Part shown: one piece after another, positions 19,450 to 46,011 of the stretch
Position numbering within the stretch: position 1 is the first letter of the stretch
Layout: every line of letters begins with the position of its first letter
Assembly: GCA_021810625.1 (NCBI GenBank)
Contig: JAJZIJ010000007.1
Coordinates: 1-64,000 of the forward strand
Length of the DNA stretch: 64,000 nucleotides
Direction: 5' to 3'
From: Acidobacteriota bacterium
GTDB lineage: Bacteria > Acidobacteriota > Terriglobia > Terriglobales > Acidobacteriaceae
Program-made: the position numbers and the translations under genes
The notes under the pieces: model-generated
Told to the model about the DNA's origin: nothing
Seen by the model: only the letters and a program-made list of their open reading frames with translations
Databases searched by the model: none

Positions 19450-19827
19450 ATGAGGGTGCGATACGCAATGCGACAGTTCATTCGATTCGTTGCCGCGGGA
19501 GCAATGATCGTGGCGGTGGCGGGCCTGTTTTTTTCCGCTCCGATTTTTGCCCAGTCTGCCAGCAAGATGGCCCAGGGAAAGGTGGAGGACAACAGCGGGC
19601 GTCCTTTGACCGACGCGATTGTCTATCTGAAGGACACCCGCACTCTGGACGTAAAGAGCTACATTACGCAGGCCGATGGCGGCTATCGTTTTGGTCAAAT
19701 CTCCAGCAACGACGATTACAAACTGTGGGCGGAGTTGAATGGAAAAAAGAGCGGCGTTAAAACGATCAGCTCTTTCGATGACAGGAAGAACCTTCTCATC
19801 AATCTGCATATCCATACAGAGAAATAA
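19450..19827 (+). CDS. Secreted carboxypeptidase-regulatory-like (transthyretin-fold) protein
   Basis: 125 residues from the ATG at 19450 (a second ATG at 19468 also fits, with GAGGG upstream). A signal peptide with FVAAGAMIVAVAGLFFSAPIFAQ is followed by one beta-sandwich: GKVEDNSGRPLTDAIVYLKDTRT, then GGYRFGQISSNDDYKLWAE and a C-terminal LLINLHI strand. This is the CarboxypepD_reg/TonB-dependent-receptor N-terminal module as a stand-alone protein, common in acidobacteria. Probably periplasmic. It lies 65 bp after the LysW-like gene. Confidence 0.78.
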   Translation: MRVRYAMRQFIRFVAAGAMIVAVAGLFFSAPIFAQSASKMAQGKVEDNSGRPLTDAIVYLKDTRTLDVKSYITQADGGYRFGQISSNDDYKLWAELNGKKSGVKTISSFDDRKNLLINLHIHTEK

Positions 19828-24283: not shown

Positions 24284-25867
24284 CTATGGCGCTGCAATGC
24301 GCCAGACGGTCACATACTTCGGCGCAGCCCAGAGTATCTGCGATGCGGGCAGCGAAAGATATCCGGCAGGCTGAAAGGGAAGTCGGGAGTAGACCTCGAC
24401 GCCCGTAACCGTCCACTGCCCATTACCCAGCGACTGGCAGGTAAAGCGCGTACTCTCCAGAAAGATGGTGTCGCAATACGTTCGCTTGCCCCAATCGTCG
24501 AAGGGAATCGAGGGGCCGACAAATGCCTCGATGTGCTCGCGGCGAAGAAATTCCCCAAGTCCGTGCTGCGCCAGCTCCTTTTGGTAGCCCACGTCGCCCA
24601 TCAGCCCATCCGCAGGAACCACGGAGATGTCCGAGTAATACGCCATCGCTCCAGGCTGGTCGAAGGCCAGCAGGCGATGAATATGGTCGCGGCCTTCGAC
24701 GACCTGCTCCAGCGCCATTACGGGCAGCGGGCGCGTCTCCATCTTTGAGTGCTTCCATCCCATGCGATCCCACAGCAGCAGAGAAAGCAAAATAGCGCAG
24801 ACGATTCCCGCCACACGCAGAATCGCGCCCTGGCGCGCATCCCGCAGCAAACACTCCCCGGCGCGCGCGGAGGTCAGGGCCGCCAACAGCGCCCAACTGG
24901 CGTAGTACCACGTCCAGCGCGTCTCGCTGGTCATGTGCAGCACAATGTAGACCGCGTGCATCAACACCCCGGCAAAGAAGGGCAATTCCACCACGACCAG
25001 CCAGCGATCCCGCTGTTTGCGCCACAACACCAGCAATGAGATTGCCGAAATCGCCAGCGCCACCAGCGCCGTATGCGGCAGATTGTGCCCCAGCCGATGA
25101 TCTCCGGCGTTGCTCGACTTCAACAATCCGCTGATGGGCATAAAGGTGTGAAACCACACGATATTGCTGAGCAGATACCCGCCCCACACGCCAGCATAAA
25201 GCGGCACGAAAGCCAGATAGCGCCGTAGCAGGCGACGATCCTTCTGCCGCGCCGTCCACGCCAGCACCGCGATCCACAGACATGCAATGACAAAGATCGA
25301 ATCCAGACGACTCAATACCGCCAAAATCGCTGCGCCATGAAACGCAGCCTCGGATGTCCAGGTGGGCCGCTCCAGATAGCGCTCCAGCAGAAGAAGCATG
25401 GCCACCAGCACCGCTGCGCTCAACGATGATTCCGTCCCCAACTGCAAGCCAAACAAAAACGGAATCAGCAGCGTCCACGCAATCCAAGCCTGCGCTCCCA
25501 AACGGCAGAGCAGGCGCTGCGCTAGCAGCAGCACGGCAACATTCAGCAGCGCAATCAATGCGGCGATGGCGTGCAATCCGGCATCGCGACCGGGAAAGAT
25601 GCGGTACACCCCCGCGCAGAGCAGCATCCAGATTGGGTGATAGCCGTTGGTTGGCATCAGCCGATTGAAGGTGCTGCCATAGCCCAGCGCGACATTGCGC
25701 CCAACCTGCAGGTAGAAAAAACTATCGTCGGCAAAAAATGGATTGGGGAAGCGAATCAGCAGCGTGGCATAGGCCGCCGCCAGCAGTAGAAAAAAACTCC
25801 GCAGCCATAGCGGGGCGTGGCAGGAGCGTGGTTTCGCGTACATGGAGGCATCCATCGGGGAGGACAT
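24284..25867 (-). CDS. Polytopic membrane protein, probable GT-C-type glycosyltransferase
   Basis: 527 residues with about eleven hydrophobic helices. The first periplasmic loop has the acidic pair FFADDSFFYLQVGRN, then NGYHPIWMLLCAGVY, as in GT-C (ArnT/PMT-like) transferases that use polyprenyl-linked sugars. The C-terminal 130 residues are soluble, with an alternating alpha/beta pattern (MAYYSDISVVPADGLMGDVGY). Three in-frame ATGs lie at the start (25867, 25855, 25843); none has a clear ribosome-binding site. The acceptor is unknown. Confidence 0.7.
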   Translation of the reverse strand: MSSPMDASMYAKPRSCHAPLWLRSFFLLLAAAYATLLIRFPNPFFADDSFFYLQVGRNVALGYGSTFNRLMPTNGYHPIWMLLCAGVYRIFPGRDAGLHAIAALIALLNVAVLLLAQRLLCRLGAQAWIAWTLLIPFLFGLQLGTESSLSAAVLVAMLLLLERYLERPTWTSEAAFHGAAILAVLSRLDSIFVIACLWIAVLAWTARQKDRRLLRRYLAFVPLYAGVWGGYLLSNIVWFHTFMPISGLLKSSNAGDHRLGHNLPHTALVALAISAISLLVLWRKQRDRWLVVVELPFFAGVLMHAVYIVLHMTSETRWTWYYASWALLAALTSARAGECLLRDARQGAILRVAGIVCAILLSLLLWDRMGWKHSKMETRPLPVMALEQVVEGRDHIHRLLAFDQPGAMAYYSDISVVPADGLMGDVGYQKELAQHGLGEFLRREHIEAFVGPSIPFDDWGKRTYCDTIFLESTRFTCQSLGNGQWTVTGVEVYSRLPFQPAGYLSLPASQILWAAPKYVTVWRIAAP

Positions 25868-34566: not shown

Positions 34567-35526
34567 TTACTTCGTCTCATGCACAGACATGGTGAGCGTC
34601 ATTGGCTGGCGGTCGCGTTGAATTTGCAGCAGCAGCAGGCTGTTGCGGTTTTCATGAACCACATGCTGCCACTTGCTGCGCGAGGTCATCGGCACATCAT
34701 CCACCTTCAGCACAATGTCCCCGGCGCGAATGCCCGCCCGCGAACCGGGGCTATTCAGATCAACGCTCTTTACCAACAATCCAGCCCCGCTTTGTACGCC
34801 AAAATACTGCGCCAGTTGCGGCCCAAGAATATCCACATCAATGCCGGTGTATAAGGTACCGATTCCAGGAATCCAACCCATCAAAATTCCGTTGGGGCCA
34901 AAGGTCTTGCCCAGATCCGACGATGCCTGACTCAAAAATCCTGATTGCGCATGGGCCGCTGGTTGCGGTTGCATCTGGGGCTGGGTCTGAGGAGCCATAG
35001 CGGCTGGCTGCGGTTGCGCCGTCATTGCTCCGCTGGATGGCTGCCGCGCGGGGTTGGGCACGGTGTAATGTTGCGACCATGCCCGCTTCTCCACATCTTT
35101 GCGATCCGCCAGTTGCACGTTTTTTTCAAGTGTCTGGCCCTTGCGCAGCAAGGTCAGCTTTATCCACTGTCCAGCGGTTTTTTTTCGCAGAAGACTGCGC
35201 GCCTGCGCGGCACTTTGCACGGAATGGCCATCCATCCGCAGCACAACATCCTGCACCTTCAGGCCCACTTGTCCGGCGGGCGCGTCATGATCCACCGCAG
35301 CAATGGCCACGCCCTGCTTGCCCTGTAAATGGAAGGCCAGTCGCTGGGAACCTGTCAGGTCTTCAAAATCCACGCCAAGGTATCCCGCGCTTGCGTGGTG
35401 AAAATGGGAGGACGCAGCCGCGCCGGGCGCAGACCCCAGCGCGTTGGAGCGGAGCGAGGTAAACACCGGCAAAATAAGCGTTATACTGGCCCAAAAAAGC
35501 GTACGGCAAAATTGTTTCCGTTTCAT
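34567..35526 (-). CDS. Exported protein with two PDZ domains
   Basis: 319 residues. A signal peptide (LFWASITLILPVFTSLRSNAL) precedes a first PDZ (about 48-140: YLGVDFEDLTGSQRLAFHLQGKQGVAIAAVDHDAPAGQVGLKVQDVVLRMDG). A Pro/Gln/Ala/Met low-complexity linker follows (about 160-205), then a second PDZ (about 225-315: LAQYFGVQSGAGLLVKSVDLNSPGSRAGIRAGDIVLKVDD). There is no trypsin-like protease domain, so this is not DegP/HtrA but a PDZ-only periplasmic adaptor. It may share a transcript with the anti-sigma/ECF genes upstream (85 bp gap). Confidence 0.85.
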   Translation of the reverse strand: MKRKQFCRTLFWASITLILPVFTSLRSNALGSAPGAAASSHFHHASAGYLGVDFEDLTGSQRLAFHLQGKQGVAIAAVDHDAPAGQVGLKVQDVVLRMDGHSVQSAAQARSLLRKKTAGQWIKLTLLRKGQTLEKNVQLADRKDVEKRAWSQHYTVPNPARQPSSGAMTAQPQPAAMAPQTQPQMQPQPAAHAQSGFLSQASSDLGKTFGPNGILMGWIPGIGTLYTGIDVDILGPQLAQYFGVQSGAGLLVKSVDLNSPGSRAGIRAGDIVLKVDDVPMTSRSKWQHVVHENRNSLLLLQIQRDRQPMTLTMSVHETK

Positions 35527-35611
35527 CTTTAGGATTGCGCCTTCCGCAAAGCCACCCGGAACACATCTGAACTCTGTTGAGTTGAATCCATTTTCTCATC
35601 CCGCCGCAGCG

Positions 35612-36652
35612 CTACTGTGTCGCTGGCAGCGTTCGCAACACCTGCGCGGACGCGGTGCGGATCATTGGATTTCGATCCTGCTGCGCCAACGTTTGCAGCA
35701 CCACACGCACGCTGCTATCGGCCTGCACGGGCCGCAGCATCCGCATGGCGGCGCTGCGCACCTGCGGGCTGGGATCGTGCATCAACGATTCTAAAACGGC
35801 ATCGCGCACATGTGTGTCCTCGGCCACGTATGGCTCCAGGCCATCGAGCGCTTTAGCGCGGACGCTGGCATCGCGATCATAGCGCAGAGCCACCATCAAC
35901 GCCGTGCGTACCGGGCCATCATTGCAAAAACGCCCCGCGCGGCACTGCTCCGCAAGCAGATTGACAGAGTCATCCTGCACGCCGATGTCAATGGCGTTGT
36001 GGGTTGCCACCAGGAGTAATCGTTGCACCTCCGGGTCGTCCATTGGGCCTTCCATCGTCTCTGGAACGATCTGGTTGTAATGCACCTCCACCGTGTTCGT
36101 GTCGGGATGCTGCACGATTCTGCTGATGTTGAAGACCTGTGGCGCAGCCGGGGACGCAACCAAATCTGTAGTCGAGGATGCGACCAGGGATGGCGTATGC
36201 GCCGTCATCATGGGAATAGATCGCAGCGGAGTGGATTGCGGTACGCTGGCGACGGTAGTGGCTTGCAACGGGGCGGCTTGCTTCTTCCACACATGTCCAG
36301 CCAATCCCCCCAGGAGAAATCCAAGAACGGCCAAGCCGGCAGCGATACCGGGCGCAGCGCGCAGTTGCACCATAAATCCATAGATGGAGGTCTGTACGCG
36401 CATCCAAAGATTGGGTGAGGGTAATTGATCCAGCAGATCTTCCAGCCGAATCCGGCAGTGAGCCAACAGGTTGGCGGAAGGCTCCTCCAGCGGGGCCAGA
36501 GACATGGCATGATGCAACGACTGATAGACCTGCAATTCATTCCGGCAGCTTTCGCAGGAACTTAGATGCAACTCCATCTCACGGTTGGACTCGTCGCCCA
36601 GCTCCCCATACACGTAGAAAATAATCTGCTGTTGTGCCCTTTCACATTTCAT
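35612..36652 (-). CDS. Anti-sigma factor with zinc finger, one TM helix and HEAT-repeat tail
   Basis: 346 residues, GAGGAGAAGG upstream of the ATG. Cytoplasmic zf-HC2/ZAS domain (residues 1-45; H-x3-C-x2-C in LHLSSCESC). A membrane helix lies near 100-118 (GIAAGLAVLGFLLGGLAGHVW). A low-complexity periplasmic stretch follows, then about 140 residues of helical HEAT-like repeats (ASVRAKALDGLEPYV, PQVRSAAMRMLRPV, PMIRTASAQVLRTL). It lies directly downstream of an ECF sigma gene, its presumed partner. HEAT repeats as the outer sensor are unusual. Confidence 0.85.
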   Translation of the reverse strand: MKCERAQQQIIFYVYGELGDESNREMELHLSSCESCRNELQVYQSLHHAMSLAPLEEPSANLLAHCRIRLEDLLDQLPSPNLWMRVQTSIYGFMVQLRAAPGIAAGLAVLGFLLGGLAGHVWKKQAAPLQATTVASVPQSTPLRSIPMMTAHTPSLVASSTTDLVASPAAPQVFNISRIVQHPDTNTVEVHYNQIVPETMEGPMDDPEVQRLLLVATHNAIDIGVQDDSVNLLAEQCRAGRFCNDGPVRTALMVALRYDRDASVRAKALDGLEPYVAEDTHVRDAVLESLMHDPSPQVRSAAMRMLRPVQADSSVRVVLQTLAQQDRNPMIRTASAQVLRTLPATQ

Positions 36653-36826
36653 GGCCTTCTCCTCAAAAAAACCCGGCTTGTTGCCAAGCCCTACTGTGCC
36701 ATCACTTTTGGCATCTTTTGTTTGAATATCTGAAATTTCTGCCTACGTATTGCAAAACTTCTGCCTACTGTATTGCAAAATTTCTGCTCATTTTCTTTAT
36801 TGCAAAACTTCCCCTCTAATTTTTCT
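36653..36826 (-). repeat. AT-rich spacer with a threefold direct repeat
   Basis: Between the ECF stop and the anti-sigma start, TATTGCAAAA recurs at 36748, 36771 and 36798 (plus-strand coordinates), each followed by (C/T)TTC(T/C), with 23- and 27-bp spacing. gcctac motifs accompany the first two copies. The block is markedly AT-richer than its neighbours. It could control translation or internal transcription of the anti-sigma gene. Confidence 0.55.
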
Positions 36827-37507
36827 TTACCTAAAATCGGAAAGCTGCGCGCGCAGCTTCCGGGTTGCGCGGAACAGTGTATTTTTCGCTGTTTCTTCCG
36901 TTGTATTCAACATCTCGCCAATCGTCCGCAACCGCAGACCGTGGTAGTGCTTCAACTCAAAAACCATTCGCTCTCGCGGGGTCAGCTTGTCCAGCGCGCT
37001 GTGGATTCTGGCACCCAGCCGCAACCGCTCCAGTTCTTGATCCGGGTTGGACATGGCCCGCCCATCAGAGATGTTGTCGAGCAGGTTGTGCTCTTCGCCT
37101 TGAGCATCAATGACCACCGCAGGATCCTCCCGGCGCGTCTTTTTGCGCCGCAATAAATCCAGACAAAGATTGGTGACGATGCGATAAATCCAGGTGTAGA
37201 AGGAACACTCAAAGCGAAAGCTGCCCAGGTGCCGATAGACCTTTAGAAACGCCTCCTGGTGAATGTCCTGCGCGTCCTGCTCGGAGCCGGTCATATGCAG
37301 CGCCAGACGCAGCACGGCATGATCGTATCGTCGCACCAATGCTTCAAAGGCTGCGCGCGACCCTTTTTGCGCCTCGCTGATTAGCTCCGCGTCCTGTATC
37401 CGTGCTGGAACGTTCGTAGACACCCGTGCTTTGGATTGTATTCCGGTTCGGAACGGACTGCGGCGTGGCAATGCAAGCGCTTGCAAACGCAATACATCAG
37501 CCGGCAT
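36827..37507 (-). CDS. ECF RNA polymerase sigma factor (RpoE/SigW-like)
   Basis: 226 residues from the ATG at 37507, with AGGAG upstream; the longer open frame lacks similarity. A roughly 40-residue N-terminal extension precedes sigma-2 (about 50-115: AFEALVRRYDHAVLRLALHMTGSEQDAQDIHQEAFLKVYRHL) and sigma-4 (about 165-220: LDKLTPRERMVFELKHYHGLRLRTIGEMLNTTEETAKNTLFRATRKLR). Paired with the HEAT-tailed anti-sigma gene 174 bp downstream. Divergent from RNase HI. Confidence 0.93.
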   Translation of the reverse strand: MPADVLRLQALALPRRSPFRTGIQSKARVSTNVPARIQDAELISEAQKGSRAAFEALVRRYDHAVLRLALHMTGSEQDAQDIHQEAFLKVYRHLGSFRFECSFYTWIYRIVTNLCLDLLRRKKTRREDPAVVIDAQGEEHNLLDNISDGRAMSNPDQELERLRLGARIHSALDKLTPRERMVFELKHYHGLRLRTIGEMLNTTEETAKNTLFRATRKLRAQLSDFR

Positions 37508-37687
37508 GGTAATCTCCTGTCCCTGTCGCGCACCCATGCAGAGAAACCCTCCACTGAAGTGACGGGGGAGAGGCCAGAACGTAAGCTGAAATAGTGACCT
37601 CCGCGTGGAATGGCAGCCTGTACAGCTCGGCGCGGTGAAGAATACGGTGGAGGAAGGGATGCGACCACTTGTAGACTGGGAAGCAAG

Positions 37688-38416
37688 ATGATGCCCCCCC
37701 CACGCAAACCTTCTGCTGAATCGCAACCCCTCCCATTCGCGGCGCGTAAGGAACCTGATGCGCGCCGCGCATCGGACACCAGTCTCTGGATTACGGCCTA
37801 TACCGATGGCGGATCGCGCGGCAACCCCGGCCCTGCCGGATACGGCGTGCTGTTGCAGGCAGCCGATGGCGCTCTGGTGGCCGAGTTAAGCGAGTTCCTC
37901 GGCATCCAGACCAACAACGTGGCGGAATACTCCGCGCTGCTCGGCGCGCTGGAGTACGCGCTCGCCCACGGTCACAGCCACCTGCGCGTCATCTCCGACT
38001 CGGAGCTGATGGTGAAGCAGATTCGCGGCCAGTACAGCGTGAAGAGTCCCGACCTGCGCCCGCTCTACGAGGAAGCCCGCCGCCGCATTGCGCGGCTGGA
38101 GGAATTTGAAATCCAGCACGTCCTGCGCGGCAAAAATAAAAAGGCTGACCAACTGGCGAATGACGCAATGGATCGTGGCATGGACAAAGGAATGCGGCGC
38201 GCTGCGCTCCTCGGTAGTCCCACCAACGCCAAAGACCGCGCAGCATCCCCGACCACGCCGCATGCTGCTCCAACAGCATCTCCCGCGTGTGACCCTGGGC
38301 ACAAGCCGATTCGCGGGATCGTCCGCCACGGAGCCATCCAGCTTCCCGAAGGCGCGCTGCCGGAGGGCACCGTCGTCATAGTAATGGCCGAGGACGCCCT
38401 GCGCGGACGCAGGTAA
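37688..38416 (+). CDS. RNase HI with C-terminal antitoxin-like (DUF104/AF2212-type) extension
   Basis: 242 residues from ATG-ATG at 37688. Residues 33-165 are an RNase H fold with catalytic D40 (YTDGGSRGNPG), E80 (NNVAEYSALLGALE), D104 (VISDSELMVKQIRG) and D154 (KKADQLAND), so it should cut RNA in RNA-DNA hybrids. A linker rich in Ala, Thr and Pro leads to a C-terminal 35 residues (GIVRHGAIQLPEGALPEGTVVIV) that match the short beta pattern of DUF104/AF2212 antitoxin-like modules. Whether that tail binds a partner is unknown. Confidence 0.88.
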   Translation: MMPPPRKPSAESQPLPFAARKEPDARRASDTSLWITAYTDGGSRGNPGPAGYGVLLQAADGALVAELSEFLGIQTNNVAEYSALLGALEYALAHGHSHLRVISDSELMVKQIRGQYSVKSPDLRPLYEEARRRIARLEEFEIQHVLRGKNKKADQLANDAMDRGMDKGMRRAALLGSPTNAKDRAASPTTPHAAPTASPACDPGHKPIRGIVRHGAIQLPEGALPEGTVVIVMAEDALRGRR

Positions 38417-39836: not shown

Positions 39837-40466
39837 TTATGCAGCAGTGGCGACAGTGACGCGGTTTTTGCGGGCGGATTCCATTACCATCCACACCAAG
39901 CGGGCCAGCAGTAAAATCGCCAGCACGACCGTGACCTTCCAGGGTGTGCGCACGCCGGTTTTTACAATCCACCAGTAATGAATGACACCCGCGATGGCCG
40001 CAACGTAAACGGCGCGATGCAACCACAGCCAGCGCTTACCGCCCAGTTTGCGAATGGCCCACAGCGTCGAGGTGGCGGCCAAGGCCAGCAGAATCAACCA
40101 CGCAAAAAATCCCACGGTAATAAAGGGGCGCTTGACGACATCATGGGCCATCGTGTGGGCATTGAAGTTGGAAAAGAGCCATATCCATGTGGTGATGTGC
40201 AGGCAGGCATAGAAAAAGGCGAAGAGTCCCAACATGCGCCGGAAGCGAATGAGCCAGGCCAGACGGCGATGGAAGCGGCGAATCGGTGTAATCGCCAGCG
40301 AGATCAACAGAAAGTAGAGCGCCCAGAAACCAGTCTGGTGCGTGATGGTGGCGACCGGGTCTGGGCCAAGACTGTCGGTGAATCCCTGATCCACCAGCAC
40401 GCCCAGCGGAACCAGACAGAGCGGGAAGACGATCCATTTGAGAGCAACGACAAAGCGATTGGGCAT
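39837..40466 (-). CDS. msrQ: Heme-binding membrane subunit of the MsrPQ methionine sulfoxide reductase
   Basis: 209 residues with six membrane helices of the ferric-reductase-like type. Conserved histidines on helices (YACLHITTWIW, WLWLHRAVYVAAIAGVIHYWWIVK) bind heme b. It passes electrons from the quinone pool or flavin to MsrP in the periplasm. It starts 33 bp after msrP on the same strand, the usual msrPQ operon. Family length is about 200. Confidence 0.93.
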   Translation of the reverse strand: MPNRFVVALKWIVFPLCLVPLGVLVDQGFTDSLGPDPVATITHQTGFWALYFLLISLAITPIRRFHRRLAWLIRFRRMLGLFAFFYACLHITTWIWLFSNFNAHTMAHDVVKRPFITVGFFAWLILLALAATSTLWAIRKLGGKRWLWLHRAVYVAAIAGVIHYWWIVKTGVRTPWKVTVVLAILLLARLVWMVMESARKNRVTVATAA

Positions 40467-40499: not shown

Positions 40500-41474
40500 C
40501 TAGAAATTTGTCCGCAGATCCATTCCTTTGTAGAGCGAGGCCACCTGATCGCCGTAACCATTGAACATCAACGTAGGCTGGCTGGCCTTCCAGAAGGGCG
40601 CGCCGATGACGCGCTCCGTTTTTTGGCTCCAGCGTGGATGATCGACATTGGGGTTCACGTTGGAGTAGAAGCCGTACTCCTTGGGCGCGGACTCGTTCCA
40701 TGTGGTGCGCGGCTGATTTTCGACAAAGCGAATCTTCACGATGGACTTGGCGGACTTAAAACCGTACTTCCACGGCAGCACCACGCGCACCGGAGCGCCG
40801 TCCTGATTGGGCAGCGTCTGACCATACAGCCCAAAGGTGAGCAGCGTCAGCGGGTGCATGGCCTCATCCATGCGCAGTCCCTCGGAGTAGGGCCAGTGGA
40901 GCGAGGATTCCCGAATCCACGGCTCTTCTCCTATATCTTCGAGCGAGAGAAACTGCACATACTTCGCGGTGCTGAGCGGCTTGCATGCCTTGATAAATTC
41001 GGAGAGGGAGTACCCATCCCAGGGAATCACCATGCTCCATGCCTCGACGCAGCGATGGCGGTAGATTCGTTCTTCGATGGGATGCAGCTTCATCAGCGCG
41101 TCAATGTCGAAGGTCTTCTCCTCTTTAACATTGCCTTCGATGGCGATCGTCCAAGGCCGCGTTTTTAGACGCCAGGCATTCTTGGCCGGATCGCTCTTGT
41201 CGGTGCCGAATTCGTAGAAGTTGTTGTAGGTGGTGATGTCCTTGAAGGAGGTCGGCGTGATGCCTGCCGTTGAGAGCGGGCTGGGAACGGTTGTCAGTTT
41301 GGCGCTGGCGCTGGTGTCAGCGTTGACGCTCTGATGTGGAGACACCAGCCGCGCCGCGCCAAGCGCGGAGGCACCCACCGCGGCTGCTCCCGCCATAAAC
41401 TGACGGCGATTCATATAGTCGGATTTGGATGTAATCTCCGACGAGGGAATGTCACTTGGTTTGCGAATCAGCAT
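40500..41474 (-). CDS. msrP: Periplasmic methionine sulfoxide reductase catalytic subunit (molybdopterin)
   Basis: 324 residues. A Tat signal with R23-R24 ([19 protein letters not shown]) exports the folded molybdenum enzyme. The cofactor-ligating cysteine is C142 ([11 protein letters not shown]). Family blocks [21 protein letters not shown] and [15 protein letters not shown] are present. It repairs oxidised methionines of periplasmic proteins. GGGAGAT precedes the ATG. The promoter-proximal DNA and the first 40 codons are duplicated 1323 bp upstream, in front of the acyltransferase gene. Confidence 0.95.
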
Positions 41475-41512
41475 GGCGCGATCTCCCTTGCCTAATTATT
41501 TAACGCCGCGCA
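41354..41512. repeat. 159-bp direct duplication, msrP copy
   Basis: Covers the first 40 codons of msrP, its ribosome-binding site and about 38 bp upstream. It aligns to 42677-42835 without gaps, with seven mismatches. The four mismatches inside codons are all synonymous. Confidence 0.95.
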
Positions 41513-41570
41513 GGCGGTGTGTCTTCGCGGTGTAGGATGCTGCAACTTCCCATTTGGTTACAAGCGAAAC

Positions 41571-42797
41571 TCAGGATTCTGTCATCTGGGCCGTCCGAAA
41601 GGGTAGAGGCTTATTCCAATTGTGAAAGAAGCGCATCAGGGGTCGCTCGACGAAAAGGTAGCAGAGTACGCCGACCAGGGTGCAAAACATTGCTCCCAGG
41701 AACACGTCGGTGTCGGCTCCAAACCGTCCAAAGATGCGCCAATAATGTTCTACCACGCTACGCGCCGGAATAGTGCAAAGATAGATGGAATACGACGCAT
41801 CGCCGAGAAAAACCAGCAGGCGCGCAGGCAGGGAACGCAGCGCTGGATTCCAGAAGATTGCGCCGCCGACCAGCAGCGCTGAGGGAACTCCCCAGACCGT
41901 GACGCGCAGCCAGCAATCCTGCCCAGCAAGAATGTACTTGGCTTCGCTGGCCTGACCGTAGCCGATAAAAATCGTGGCAGCGAGCAGGAGAGCGCCAATG
42001 GCAGCAATCCATCGACCTGCTTTGGTCATAGAATCGGCGCGCCGAGCAAAGAGCATTCCCACCATGCAGCCGAAGACAAACTCCAGAATCATGGGGTTCA
42101 TCCAGAGAATCAGCAGCGGGCGATGGATGCCGACCAGCGCCCCCACGGCGACCATGACGCATAGAAAGACTGCCGTGTTGCGGATGACCAAGCGCGGTGT
42201 CCAGGCTAGAAAAGCAGTCAGCACAAGGTAGAAGTACAGCTCGAAGACTAGACTCCAGCCCAGCCAGAGCAAGGGCTGGGCGATGAAAGGATGAAACGAG
42301 GGAAGCAGCAGAATCGTGGGCAGCCAGGGGACGCTATGCCAGTGGATTTTATAGCGGCCTAGCTCGCCTTCCAGAATGACGGCGAGGGTTAGAATCCAGT
42401 AGAGCGGAAAGATGCGCGTGATGCGGCGGCGGAGGAAGTGGCGGGCTGTGTGCCTCGGTTGCGAGCGCCTCTGCGTTGCGGCGCGCGCGGCGACTAGCGA
42501 GACGATGAATCCGCTGATGACAAAGAAAATATCCATGCCGGAGGCACCGAAGTTTCCCCAATAAAAAAAATGGCTTTGCCGGGGAGTGGCAAAGTATTCC
42601 GCCGCGTCAATAGAGTGCGCCCAGACGACCAGCAGCGCGGCCACGGCGCGTAGAGCCTGCACGGAGAGTAGCCGCTCCGCGCCAAGCGCGGAGGCACCCA
42701 CCGCGGCTGCTCCCGCCATAAACTGACGGCGATTCATATAGTCGGATTTGGAGGTAATCTCCGACGAAGGAATGTCACTCGGCTTGCGAATCAGCAT
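41571..42797 (-). CDS. Acyltransferase-3 membrane protein with a duplicated MsrP Tat leader (gene chimera)
   Basis: 408 residues. Residues 1-40 are identical to the start of MsrP, including NRRQFMAG. At residue 41 the sequence passes in frame into a normal acyltransferase-3 (OafA/NodX-type) protein: RLLSVQALRAVAALLVVWAH with the active-site histidine, then FFVISGFIVS and about ten membrane helices, ending FVERPLMRFFHNW. Such enzymes O-acylate surface polysaccharides. The ribosome-binding site and start are those of the duplicated msrP segment, so its expression signals were probably captured too. It lies upstream of and parallel to msrP, 96 bp away. Confidence 0.9.
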   Translation of the reverse strand: MLIRKPSDIPSSEITSKSDYMNRRQFMAGAAAVGASALGAERLLSVQALRAVAALLVVWAHSIDAAEYFATPRQSHFFYWGNFGASGMDIFFVISGFIVSLVAARAATQRRSQPRHTARHFLRRRITRIFPLYWILTLAVILEGELGRYKIHWHSVPWLPTILLLPSFHPFIAQPLLWLGWSLVFELYFYLVLTAFLAWTPRLVIRNTAVFLCVMVAVGALVGIHRPLLILWMNPMILEFVFGCMVGMLFARRADSMTKAGRWIAAIGALLLAATIFIGYGQASEAKYILAGQDCWLRVTVWGVPSALLVGGAIFWNPALRSLPARLLVFLGDASYSIYLCTIPARSVVEHYWRIFGRFGADTDVFLGAMFCTLVGVLCYLFVERPLMRFFHNWNKPLPFRTAQMTES

Positions 42798-42835
42798 GGC
42801 GCGATCTCCCTCGCCTAACTATTTAACGCCGTGCA
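42677..42835. repeat. 159-bp direct duplication, acyltransferase copy
   Basis: Partner of 41354-41512 at a constant offset of 1323 bp, about 96 percent identical by hand count. It ends at the same point upstream and, on the coding side, exactly at the join to the acyltransferase sequence. Confidence 0.95.
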
Positions 42836-42884
42836 ATTGTTTTTGTCTTCTTTTTTCAGCCATGCGGCCACCCTGCGTTTGGGG

Positions 42885-43007
42885 AAGCTCTGCACAAGTC
42901 GGAACTTTGAAGGGGCGGGACTTCAGTCCCGCCGTAAATACTTGAAATGGGGGGCGGGCTTTAGCCCCTGAGGGACAGCCGTGGAACTTGATCAGAGATT
43001 CCTTAGA
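42885..43007. repeat. Dispersed palindromic repeat, copy C
   Basis: gaagctctgcacaagtcgg, ttgaaggggcgggacttcag, tcccgcc, then gggcgggctttagcccctga and agagattcc. Same family as 8690-8825 but with the inner part inverted. It fills the gap between the chimera's promoter segment and the regulator gene. Confidence 0.8.
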
Positions 43008-43043
43008 CGGCAATTCATCGTCCAGCCAGTGATCTTTCAAGAG

Positions 43044-43772
43044 CTACTTCTGTCCAGATGGAGTCGGCGCAGATCGGCGATGCGGTTCCGTTTGCGCGCG
43101 GAGCGCCTTCACCTTCAGGATGACAATGCGATGGCCACGCACGTCGATGATCCCCTGCTGCACCAGTTTTTGCAGGCTGCGCGTAACCACCTCCCGCACC
43201 GATCCAAGCCGTGATGCCAACTGCGTATGCGACAGCGGCAGAGAAAACGAGATGCCATCCTGTAGTTTCGCGGACTTTCGTTTTGCTTCTTCCAGCAGCA
43301 GCATGGCCAATCGCTGGCTGACATCCTTCAACGCAAGCTGCTCGGCCAATGAGGCTACCACGCGCAGCTTTTTTGCCATCAACGCCAATGCGGCGAGCGC
43401 CGCCTCTGGATGGCGCAACAAAAATCTGCGTACATCTTCCTTCGCGAGAAACAGCACCTCGGAGTCTTCTTCCGCCATCGTGGAGGAGGGATAGGCACCG
43501 CCATCGAAGACGGCAACCTCCGCCAGCGTTCCTCCGGCGTGTTCCACATGGATGGTCTGCTCGCGCCCGTCGATATTTTCGCGAAAAGCGCGCACAGAAC
43601 CGGAAAGCACCACATAGAGGCCGTCTGCTGGTTCGTTGGCCGTAAAGAGAATCTGCCCCTGTCGAATTTTTCTCTCTACGGCATGTTGCGCCAAGTCCAT
43701 CAGTGCCATTTCTGGGAGGTTTTGAAAGAGCGCCGACTTTGCCAGAACCTCGATGCTTCGCTTGATGGACAT
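43044..43772 (-). CDS. Crp/Fnr-family regulator (probable NO/anaerobic type)
   Basis: 242 residues from the ATG at 43772, which has GGAAG eight bases upstream; earlier in-frame ATGs (43790, 43820) lack one. A cyclic-nucleotide-binding-type beta roll (about 18-120: KIRQGQILFTANEPADGLYVVLSGSVRAF) is followed by a dimer helix and a winged HTH (about 180-225: LSHTQLASRLGSVREVVTRSLQKLV). The FNR iron-sulfur cysteine cluster is missing, as in DNR/NnrR-type NO sensors. It is divergent from ric and nnrS with a Crp/Fnr-type palindrome in between, so it probably controls them. Confidence 0.88.
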   Translation of the reverse strand: MSIKRSIEVLAKSALFQNLPEMALMDLAQHAVERKIRQGQILFTANEPADGLYVVLSGSVRAFRENIDGREQTIHVEHAGGTLAEVAVFDGGAYPSSTMAEEDSEVLFLAKEDVRRFLLRHPEAALAALALMAKKLRVVASLAEQLALKDVSQRLAMLLLEEAKRKSAKLQDGISFSLPLSHTQLASRLGSVREVVTRSLQKLVQQGIIDVRGHRIVILKVKALRAQTEPHRRSAPTPSGQK

Positions 43773-43873
43773 ACTGCCATCTTCCGGCATGTTTTTGCAG
43801 ATCGCAACTTGAATCGACATCGCATGGCGATAGTATGAAATCTCCAGGCGTGAAATCCGCACCTGGAGCAAGG

Positions 43874-43889
43874 AGTGATTTAAGTCACT
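43874..43889. promoter_or_regulatory. Crp/Fnr-type operator
   Basis: AGTGA-TTTAAG-TCACT: a perfect 5-bp inverted repeat with 6-bp centre, matching the TGTGA-N6-TCACA layout of the Crp/Fnr superfamily except for the outer base. It lies 75 bp before ric and about 100 bp before the regulator gene start. Confidence 0.65.
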
Positions 43890-43963
43890 GAGTCTTCCCG
43901 GTTGCCCCGCTACGGTGGAACTCAGAGCCTTGAAACGTCACCCGGCTCTAGTCAGGAAGTAGA

Positions 43964-44704
43964 ATGATGGTCATTACCTCTGAAACGAAAATTTGCGATA
44001 TCGCCGTGGAATATCCAACCGCCATTCCGGTGCTGGAGCGCCTCGGCATCGACTACTGTTGTGGCGGCAAGCACACGCTGGCCGAGGCATGCGCGCGTAA
44101 AAGTCTACATCTCGCTCCTGTACTGGCGGAGTTGGAGCTTCAGCAGCAGGACACGAGCCTTCCCGAAGCCCAATGGCAGCAGGCTCCCTTGAAAAAATTG
44201 GCTGCGTATGTCGTGCAGCAGCATCACGCATTTACACGCGACCAGATCAAGCTGATTGGTGACCTGTTGTCCAAAGTGGAAGTCCGCCACGGAGCCGATC
44301 ATGCGGAGGTCTTTGAGATCAGCAAAGTCTTCGCCGCCATCAGTTCCGAACTGACCCACCATTTTTTCTGCGAAGAAACCATCCTGTTCCCTTATATTGG
44401 AACGTTGGATGCAGACCAGCCGCCAGCCTCGCCGCCTGTCTTTGGCAACGTGGAACAGCCCATCACGCGCATGATGACGGATCACGACCAGGCTGGCGAG
44501 GAGCTTCGCGAACTGCGTGAACTATCCAACAACTACACGCCGCCGCCTGCGGCCTGCCCAACATGGCGCGCGCTCTATCGCGCATTGGAAGACCTGGAGC
44601 GGGATTTGCATCAGCACATTCATCTGGAGAACAACATCCTTTTTCCGCGCGCGTTGGCGCGGGCCGGAAAGCAGTCTGGAAAATCCATTATGGAGTGTGC
44701 ATGA
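43964..44704 (+). CDS. ric: Iron-sulfur cluster repair di-iron protein RIC
   Basis: 246 residues, GGAAG upstream of ATG-ATG. The N-terminal ScdA/DUF542 domain carries Y-C32-C33-G-G (RLGIDYCCGGKHTL). The rest is a hemerythrin-like four-helix bundle with the expected histidines and glutamates (QQHHAFTRDQ, SELTHHFFCEETILFPYI, DHDQAGEE, HIHLENNILFPRA). YtfE/ScdA proteins repair iron-sulfur clusters damaged by nitric oxide or oxidants. The stop overlaps the nnrS start (ATGA), so the two are translationally coupled. Confidence 0.93.
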   Translation: MMVITSETKICDIAVEYPTAIPVLERLGIDYCCGGKHTLAEACARKSLHLAPVLAELELQQQDTSLPEAQWQQAPLKKLAAYVVQQHHAFTRDQIKLIGDLLSKVEVRHGADHAEVFEISKVFAAISSELTHHFFCEETILFPYIGTLDADQPPASPPVFGNVEQPITRMMTDHDQAGEELRELRELSNNYTPPPAACPTWRALYRALEDLERDLHQHIHLENNILFPRALARAGKQSGKSIMECA

Positions 44705-46011
44705 CCCTGCCCGTCCAGCAAGGGAATTCTGACACAACGCGCATCGTAATGGAGCAGCACAGCCAGCGGTTGGTGACGGCCTTCATCGTCAGCGGAATGC
44801 TCTTTATGCTGCTGCCGGGAACCTTTCTTGGCGTTTGGAATTTGATTGGCATCTCGCAACAACGCACGCTCAGCAGCCTGTCTCCCGCGTGGTTGCAGGC
44901 GCATGGGCAGGCGCAGATTTTTGGCTGGATTGGCTCGTTTATTCTTGGTATTGGATTTTATTCGCTCACAAAAATGCAGAGTACGCTGCGCTTTCCCGTC
45001 CGCGCTGGATGGACTTCGTGGGCGCTATGGACGCTTGGAATCGCGCTGCGCTGGATCGGCGGCGTGACTGGCTGGCAGTGGAAGATTCTGTTGCCACTCT
45101 CCGGCCTGCTGGAACTGGTTGCGTTCCTTTTCTTCTTTCACTCCGTGCGGCGGCATCGCCCGGAGCAGCCGGCGCAACGCGCGGAAATATGGATGGTCGT
45201 CGTCATGGCGGCAACCATCGCTTTTCTGGTGGCGTTGATCGCCAATTTTGCCGCTCTCGCGCATCTGGCTCTCCACGGCGCTTCGCCCGCGCTGCCGCAT
45301 GTGCTGGATCAGCAGCTTGTTGTCCTGTTCGTTTGGGGAATTCTGGTTCCCACCATCTGGGGATTCAATGCGCGCTGGCTGCCCGTCTTCGCCGGATTTC
45401 GGAAGCCGAATGGGAATCGCCTACTGCTGGCGTATGGATGTAGTCTGGCAGGCATCGCTGCCGTCTTTGCCCAATGGCTGCCCATCGCCGCCGTCGCGTT
45501 TTTGTTCGCAAGCCTGCTGGCTGTGGATGCGCTGCATGTATGGGAGCCTGCCGTGCAGCCAGCCAAACTCCTGCATGTTCATGCGAGCTTTCCGATCTTC
45601 ATTCGCATCACGTATATCTGGCTGGTTGTGTCGTGTGTTCTAACCGGAGCGGCGGTTCTTTACGACCGCGCAGGCGGCATCTGGGGCGCAAGCCGCCACG
45701 CGCTTACGGTGGGCTTTGTTGCCGGGATGGTCTTCGTGATTGGCCAGCGCATCCTGCCCGCCTTTTGCGGGATGCGCGTGTTGTGGAGCACACGGCTGAT
45801 GTTGTGGTCGCTGCTGCTGTTGCACGTTGGCTGCGCGCTGCGCGTGACGCTGGAACCGCTGGCCTATGAAGGCTATTGGAACTTTGCCTGGAAGCTGCTG
45901 CCATGCTCCGCATTCATGGAGCTGACTGCGGTTGTTCTGTTTGCGCTCAACATTGCGGGTACGCTGCTCCAGCCGCCCGCGCATTTGAGAAACGCTACAC
46001 AAGTGCGTTGA
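44701..46011 (+). CDS. nnrS: NnrS-family heme/copper membrane protein
   Basis: 436 residues, twelve predicted membrane helices. The AHGQAQIFGWIGSFILGIGFYSL motif in the first third, WLPVFAGF, and HALTVGFVAGMVFVIGQRILPAF with conserved histidines are NnrS hallmarks. NnrS protects against nitric-oxide stress, especially formation of metal-nitrosyl complexes. The ATG at 44701 overlaps the ric stop. Together with the divergent Crp/Fnr regulator this forms a compact NO-response module; no nor or nir gene is present. Confidence 0.88.
   Translation: MTLPVQQGNSDTTRIVMEQHSQRLVTAFIVSGMLFMLLPGTFLGVWNLIGISQQRTLSSLSPAWLQAHGQAQIFGWIGSFILGIGFYSLTKMQSTLRFPVRAGWTSWALWTLGIALRWIGGVTGWQWKILLPLSGLLELVAFLFFFHSVRRHRPEQPAQRAEIWMVVVMAATIAFLVALIANFAALAHLALHGASPALPHVLDQQLVVLFVWGILVPTIWGFNARWLPVFAGFRKPNGNRLLLAYGCSLAGIAAVFAQWLPIAAVAFLFASLLAVDALHVWEPAVQPAKLLHVHASFPIFIRITYIWLVVSCVLTGAAVLYDRAGGIWGASRHALTVGFVAGMVFVIGQRILPAFCGMRVLWSTRLMLWSLLLLHVGCALRVTLEPLAYEGYWNFAWKLLPCSAFMELTAVVLFALNIAGTLLQPPAHLRNATQVR

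Follow-up and report, generated by a model that had tools for sequence, protein, structure and literature searches.

An acyltransferase-3 gene fronted by a copied msrP leader in an Acidobacteriaceae genome: probable capture of a neighbour's translation start

In the Cit+ lineage of E. coli, the rnk-citG tandem duplication produced a copied rnk promoter that drives citT behind a truncated fusion (PMC5918244). Polytopic membrane proteins that carry a twin-arginine motif and depend on both Sec and Tat have also been described, among them the actinobacterial Rieske protein; in those known so far, the helix that depends on Tat comes last, has low hydrophobicity and lies ahead of a folded cofactor domain (PMC5449189). 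For the acyltransferase-3 (AT3) proteins, the R-X10-H and RXXR motifs have been defined, and the essential arginine of R-X10-H has been placed on the cytoplasmic side of the first transmembrane helix, TMH1 (PMC9833829). The locus considered here lies in a window of 64,000 nt (the whole stretch of DNA that was analysed) from an Acidobacteriaceae genome, and it is like rnk-citG in that a local duplication has joined the 5' part of one gene to its neighbour, with the creation of a fusion frame and of what would be new expression signals for the neighbouring gene. It differs in that the fusion protein is itself the product, and in that the main promoter of the donor gene, msrP, was probably not copied. 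MsrPQ is the source of the leader, and in the window msrP and msrQ are complete, adjacent and ordinary members of their families, themselves unchanged. The recipient shares ten hydrophobic segments, R-X10-H and RXXR with standalone PF01757 proteins (such as the AT3 domain of OafA/OafB), from which it is set apart by a 40-residue twin-arginine leader that is absent from the orthologues examined; it has no SGNH domain. Likewise, its twin-arginine motif recalls that of the dual Sec-Tat proteins, but in the actinobacterial Rieske protein that motif stands ahead of the final helix and a folded cofactor domain, whereas in the chimera it stands ahead of the first helix, with no folded domain after it. 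The features on which the comparison depends are as follows.

41571 to 42797, minus strand: chimeric gene encoding 408 aa, with AT3 in frame behind an MsrP leader (open reading frame; PF01757; ten hydrophobic segments; motifs)
42615 to 42650, minus strand: AT3 R-X10-H motif, R50 to H61, at the start of TMH1 (motif definition from PMC9833829)
40500 to 41474, minus strand: msrP, catalytic subunit of the periplasmic methionine sulfoxide reductase, bearing its own Tat leader (NF003767, E 9.7e-138)
39837 to 40466, minus strand: msrQ, heme-binding membrane subunit (NF003831, E 6e-48)
41347 to 41512, minus strand: repeat copy M, the native msrP 5' end (repeat search)
42670 to 42835, minus strand: repeat copy A, part of the msrP 5' untranslated region with the ribosome-binding site and the first 40+ codons, fronting the acyltransferase gene (95% identity to 41347-41512)

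Our preferred reading, to which we assign a probability of about 0.74, is that the chimeric gene arose by partial duplication and represents a captured translation start, with the leader carried as a passive cytoplasmic tail. The repeat search returned a two-copy direct repeat of 166 nt (41347-41512 and 42670-42835, 95% identical, spacing 1323 bp), and no third copy of the block turned up when the genome as a whole (2.45 Mb in 74 contigs) was searched at the DNA level; going by sequence, a match of this length and identity is far beyond chance. Read on the minus strand, each copy comprises the last ~38 nt before the ATG, the ribosome-binding site and 40 codons for an identical peptide. The copies differ at three positions upstream of the ATG (-15, -22 and -35) and in codons 5, 6, 10 and 15 (AAA/AAG, CCA/CCG, CCC/CCT and ACA/ACC), all four of these changes being synonymous. 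An earlier note on this DNA had described such a duplicated msrP 5' block joined in frame to an acyltransferase-3 gene, with seven differences, three of them upstream and four synonymous, and an identical 40-residue peptide; alignment of the copies and the genome search confirm both the block and the count, an eighth difference lying just beyond the leader at nt +122 (GCG/GAG, A41/E41), and a true in-frame chimera with a copied ribosome-binding site and leader is supported. With the msrP of the sister species G001 as a guide, copy A can be followed further upstream to GAAGAC at -53 (~42850), for a total of ~181 nt, and similarity drops off abruptly beyond that point.

The protein behind the leader appears to be an otherwise ordinary ten-helix AT3 enzyme, with a putative role in acyl transfer to a surface glycan. 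It matches PF01757 with an E value of 3.8e-33 over residues 45-378 (profile positions 3-322 of 326), at a score of 115.4 bits against a curated cut-off of 31; R-X10-H lies in TMH1, RXXR is present at TMH3 as RITR (residues 125-128), and ten hydropathy peaks are seen, as judged by simple hydropathy only. The 5' part of the gene is msrP and the 3' part AT3, with a full msrP adjacent and an AT3 with its own start in relatives. A search of solved structures gave no match, and an Rfam search nothing credible. The possibility that AT3 is a pseudogene was considered and rejected: the gene is full length, and its synonymous/non-synonymous counts against G001 (4/9 in the 60 codons available there) do not stand clearly apart from the counts in intact relatives (8/4, 7/6 and 6/10 in the last 66 codons).

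Comparison with the closest family relatives that have a complete locus indicates how the parents were arranged before the fusion. In eight of these (G144, G209, G247, G179, G086, G235, G161 and G016), from three other genera, AT3 immediately precedes msrP, both genes being on one strand, and each locus has a single msrP leader. The ancestral order, as shown in relatives, would be AT3-msrP-msrQ on one strand, and this adjacency implies that the start of AT3 was exchanged, rather than that AT3 is a new arrival; a recent mobile-element insertion of AT3 was rejected on the same ground. The AT3 N-tails of the relatives are short, unrelated to the leader and variable in both length and sequence (e.g. 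MSTLTTVRPASKTGADAARLYSVQ and MSSTPALSPEPSAAGGKLRILQ), and none has a twin-arginine leader. The search for the acyltransferase with and without the leader in related genomes, which the earlier note had proposed, places the leader, among the complete loci compared, in the window AT3 only. In the AT3 tree the window sequence groups with G144 (98/97), and the order of the other groups is open. The only other genome of the genus is G001; its contig ends inside AT3, so that the chimera is known from one genome, and a scan of genome contigs for relatives returned the sister contig only. Two contigs of G001, C121 (ending at 24698) and C134 (ending at 19559), stop inside AT3, at the equivalent of about 41753 in the window, and inside the fnr-type gene, at about 43214, and the gene order of the sister species may match that of the window, with the part flanked by the two contig ends missing.

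The DNA upstream of AT3 is not constant. In the window it consists of a dispersed repeat and a gene for an Fnr-type regulator, in G144 of an EF-G-like gene (both genes named from sequence), and elsewhere of other genes.

42878 to 43012, no strand assigned: dispersed palindromic repeat adjoining the chimera on its upstream side (44 matches in a search of its own genome; fold z-score -3.85)

This palindromic element, with a GGCGGGACTGAAGTCCCGCC core, has about 40 matches in the sister genome as well, and it folds better than shuffled sequences. At the other end of the copied block, the leader-AT3 junction reads LGAERLLSVQALRA (LGAERLL), at a place where MsrP relatives read GA(E/D)RL and AT3 relatives LGSRLLSVQALRA or similar (LGSRLL in the N-tails of G195, G258 and G137). 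The join falls in a stretch with similar codons in both genes (LG..RL), which fits illegitimate recombination at short similarity. The sequence of events would thus have included a rearrangement of the DNA upstream of AT3 in this lineage, bringing the gene next to the dispersed repeat and the Fnr-type regulator gene, and the replacement of the AT3 start by a ~181-nt copy of the msrP 5' end, joined at the LG..RL look-alike frames. This could have come about by a one-step copy or by a tandem duplication of the AT3 body and leader followed by a deletion, either of which would give the observed result. RNA-templated copying, brought to mind by a block start near the predicted msrP transcription start, was set aside, no reverse transcriptase (PF00078) having been found in the genome.

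As to its age, the two leader copies differ by four synonymous and no non-synonymous changes, a synonymous difference of 0.135 per site; the corresponding value for msrP, compared between this genome and G001, is 0.166. The closeness of the two values implies that the duplication is about as old as the split of the two species and the chimera therefore fairly young. At codons 32 and 36 both window copies share a base that is rare in outgroups, which leans towards a later date of duplication or towards conversion between the copies.

What the copied block brought to the acyltransferase gene is a separate question, on which the following promoter candidates bear.

41534 to 41562, minus strand: ECF-type promoter candidate of msrP, TGTAACC-N17-TCCT, outside the copied block (TGTAAC frequency; conservation in G001)
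41498 to 41525, minus strand: weaker promoter candidate before msrP, AAGACA-N16-TTAAAT, inside the copied block (post hoc motif)
42821 to 42849, minus strand: copy of the weaker candidate before the chimera, AAGACA-N17-TTAAAT (post hoc motif)

It is conceivable, though in our view unlikely, that the block carried a working msrP promoter (AAGACA-N17-TTAAAT) and that AT3 is co-expressed with msrP under oxidative stress. Six g78 relatives, G001 and the two window copies share a pattern of the form NNGACA-N(16-19)-TNNAAT at -49 to -60 of msrP, which makes 9 of 37 sequences against 0.16 in shuffles, and the start of the block coincides with the -35-like hexamer of this pattern. However, this inner motif was picked post hoc, the relatives that bear the NNGACA pattern are mostly of one genus, and a sigma-70 scan gives no site. 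A stronger TGTAAC...TCTAA signal sets the msrP promoter at -88 to -60, beyond the block, which begins only at ~-53. Upstream of 33 family msrP genes the two commonest hexamers are TGTAAC and TCTAAT, with 13 occurrences each, whereas 1.2 would be expected for TGTAAC (shuffle mean) and the highest count for any hexamer in 100 shuffles was nine; in most places that have both, they are separated by 17-18 nt. The outer region is also the steadier one, with 1 mismatch in 43 positions between this genome and G001, as opposed to an indel and substitutions in the inner part that lies within the block. In Brucella, the msrPQ homologues are under an ECF16 sigma factor whose deduced -35 element is likewise TGTAAC (PMC8315932). 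The main ECF-type msrP promoter was probably not copied with the block, and of the earlier suggestion that the MsrP promoter had been duplicated, what stands is the copying of the ribosome-binding site and leader, with a weaker candidate inside the block but the strongest candidate outside it. Transcription of AT3 would then come from readthrough, from the weaker promoter-like sequence in the block, or from the newly joined upstream DNA.

Across the family, roughly one in three of 33 genomes has a conserved TGTAAC-N17/18-(G)TC(T/C)TA element ahead of msrP, which resembles the Brucella msrPQ ECF-type promoter. Control of the ECF-like promoter by a Caulobacter-type SigF/NrsF system was considered and rejected, as NrsF (PF06532) was not found in this genome. 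A few kb from msrPQ, at 34567-37726 of the window, genes for a PDZ-domain protein, an anti-sigma-like protein and an ECF sigma factor stand in a row (named from sequence); the row is also near msrPQ in G001 and is a possible regulator.

The signal retained most plainly in the block is the one for translation.

42804 to 42812, minus strand: ribosome-binding site GAGGGAGAT before the chimera ATG (read from sequence; retained from msrP)

In-frame ATG codons occur at positions 21 and 27 and a GTG at 46, and translation might in principle begin at one of these, within or after the leader, which would then be partly or wholly untranslated. We think this quite improbable, as no purine-rich site lies ahead of codons 21, 27 and 46, whereas codon 1 retains GAGGGAGAT, and a start at codon 46 would not give the ~9-26 pre-domain residues kept by orthologues. 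Translation most likely proceeds from the leader ATG at codon 1, the only one of these positions with a ribosome-binding site, and the copied block would in this way supply AT3 with both a ribosome-binding site and a start codon; their retention is shown, their use presumed. It had also been argued that, since all coding differences between the copies are synonymous, both peptides are translated and kept. The four of four are indeed synonymous, but with G001 as a third sequence the changes divide equally, two on the AT3 branch and two on the msrP branch, and the chance that two random changes would both be synonymous without selection is 0.07-0.09. The corresponding figure for all four, 0.005-0.008, says little about the AT3 leader, because half of the changes lie in msrP, which is constrained anyway. 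The pattern is therefore a weak sign of constraint on the AT3 leader.

An assembly artefact or strain mixture, in which AT3 would have been linked within a contig to an msrP leader from a different strain, seems very unlikely. Although the genome is in 74 contigs and was judged from assembled sequence alone, and the second genome (G001) has a gap at exactly this place, the two genes meet in frame where their codons match, copies A and M differ at sites spread through the block and not clustered, the DNA beyond the upstream end does not resemble that of relatives, and there is no chimeric overlap beyond a few bases to account for the join.

A captured start leaves the question of what becomes of the leader itself.

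42678 to 42797, minus strand: MsrP-type twin-arginine leader, residues 1-40 of the chimera (identical to MsrP residues 1-40)

The leader has a full twin-arginine motif and hydrophobic stretch, the same as in MsrP, where TIGR01409 matches above and PF10518 below their curated cut-offs. The copy ends before the post-leader region of MsrP, and the chimera has neither a cleavage region nor a folded exported domain; instead, the leader runs straight into TMH1 of AT3. Its hydrophobicity peak is 1.21, against 1.4-2.4 for the AT3 transmembrane segments. That it is a working Tat signal, directing either the first helix or the entire enzyme to the Tat translocase, is scarcely credible even with a motif identical to that of MsrP and the existence of polytopic proteins that combine the Sec and Tat routes (PMC5449189), since N-in/C-out insertion of the leader would misplace the essential R50, which lies only ten residues past the leader and is required on the cytoplasmic side, the Tat-dependent helix of known Sec-Tat proteins is the last and not, as here, the first with no folded cofactor domain after it, and AT3 orthologues do without such a leader. 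Tat-dependent insertion of the first helix, as the earlier note had envisaged, is thus not borne out. The most likely fate of the leader, given the AT3 topology and the variable tails of orthologues, is that of a passive cytoplasmic N-terminal tail: its 40 residues would stay in the cytoplasm and AT3 would be inserted by the SRP/Sec route. We regard the gene as a genuine chimera, unusual for a Tat leader on a polytopic enzyme, and its benefit to the cell as most probably a translation start only. As such it offers a clear natural case in which a bacterial gene has given up its own start for the ribosome-binding site and initial codons of a neighbour, with adjacent parents and a known ancestral order. 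It suggests that the AT3 N-tail is freely exchangeable, even for an export signal, and it provides a direct test of how the cell handles a twin-arginine leader when a polytopic protein carries it ahead of its first helix.

The conserved AT3-Msr neighbourhood, which ties surface acylation to methionine repair in a way not yet explained, is a more promising lead than the chimera. In three genomes of one genus (G195, G258 and G137; loci L050, L051 and L052), an AT3 orthologue lies directly downstream of msrA and msrP is elsewhere; msrA, named here from sequence by its GAGCFW motif, encodes a methionine sulfoxide reductase different from MsrP. AT3 thus adjoins msrP in four genera and msrA in three genomes of one genus. 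Coincidence or a single relocation could account for the two Msr neighbourhoods, yet they hint at a functional relation. The stronger proposal, that AT3 is a lasting functional partner of Msr in these Acidobacteriaceae and that capture of the leader kept it co-expressed with msrP after the upstream rearrangement, strikes us as doubtful; if true, acyl transfer at the cell surface would belong to the way these bacteria respond to oxidised methionine. On the other side of the chimera, at 43044-46011 of the window, the Fnr-type regulator gene is divergent from ric/ytfE-like (iron-sulfur repair) and nnrS-like genes (named from sequence), a block with a DNA match in four g78-type genomes and a partial one in G144.
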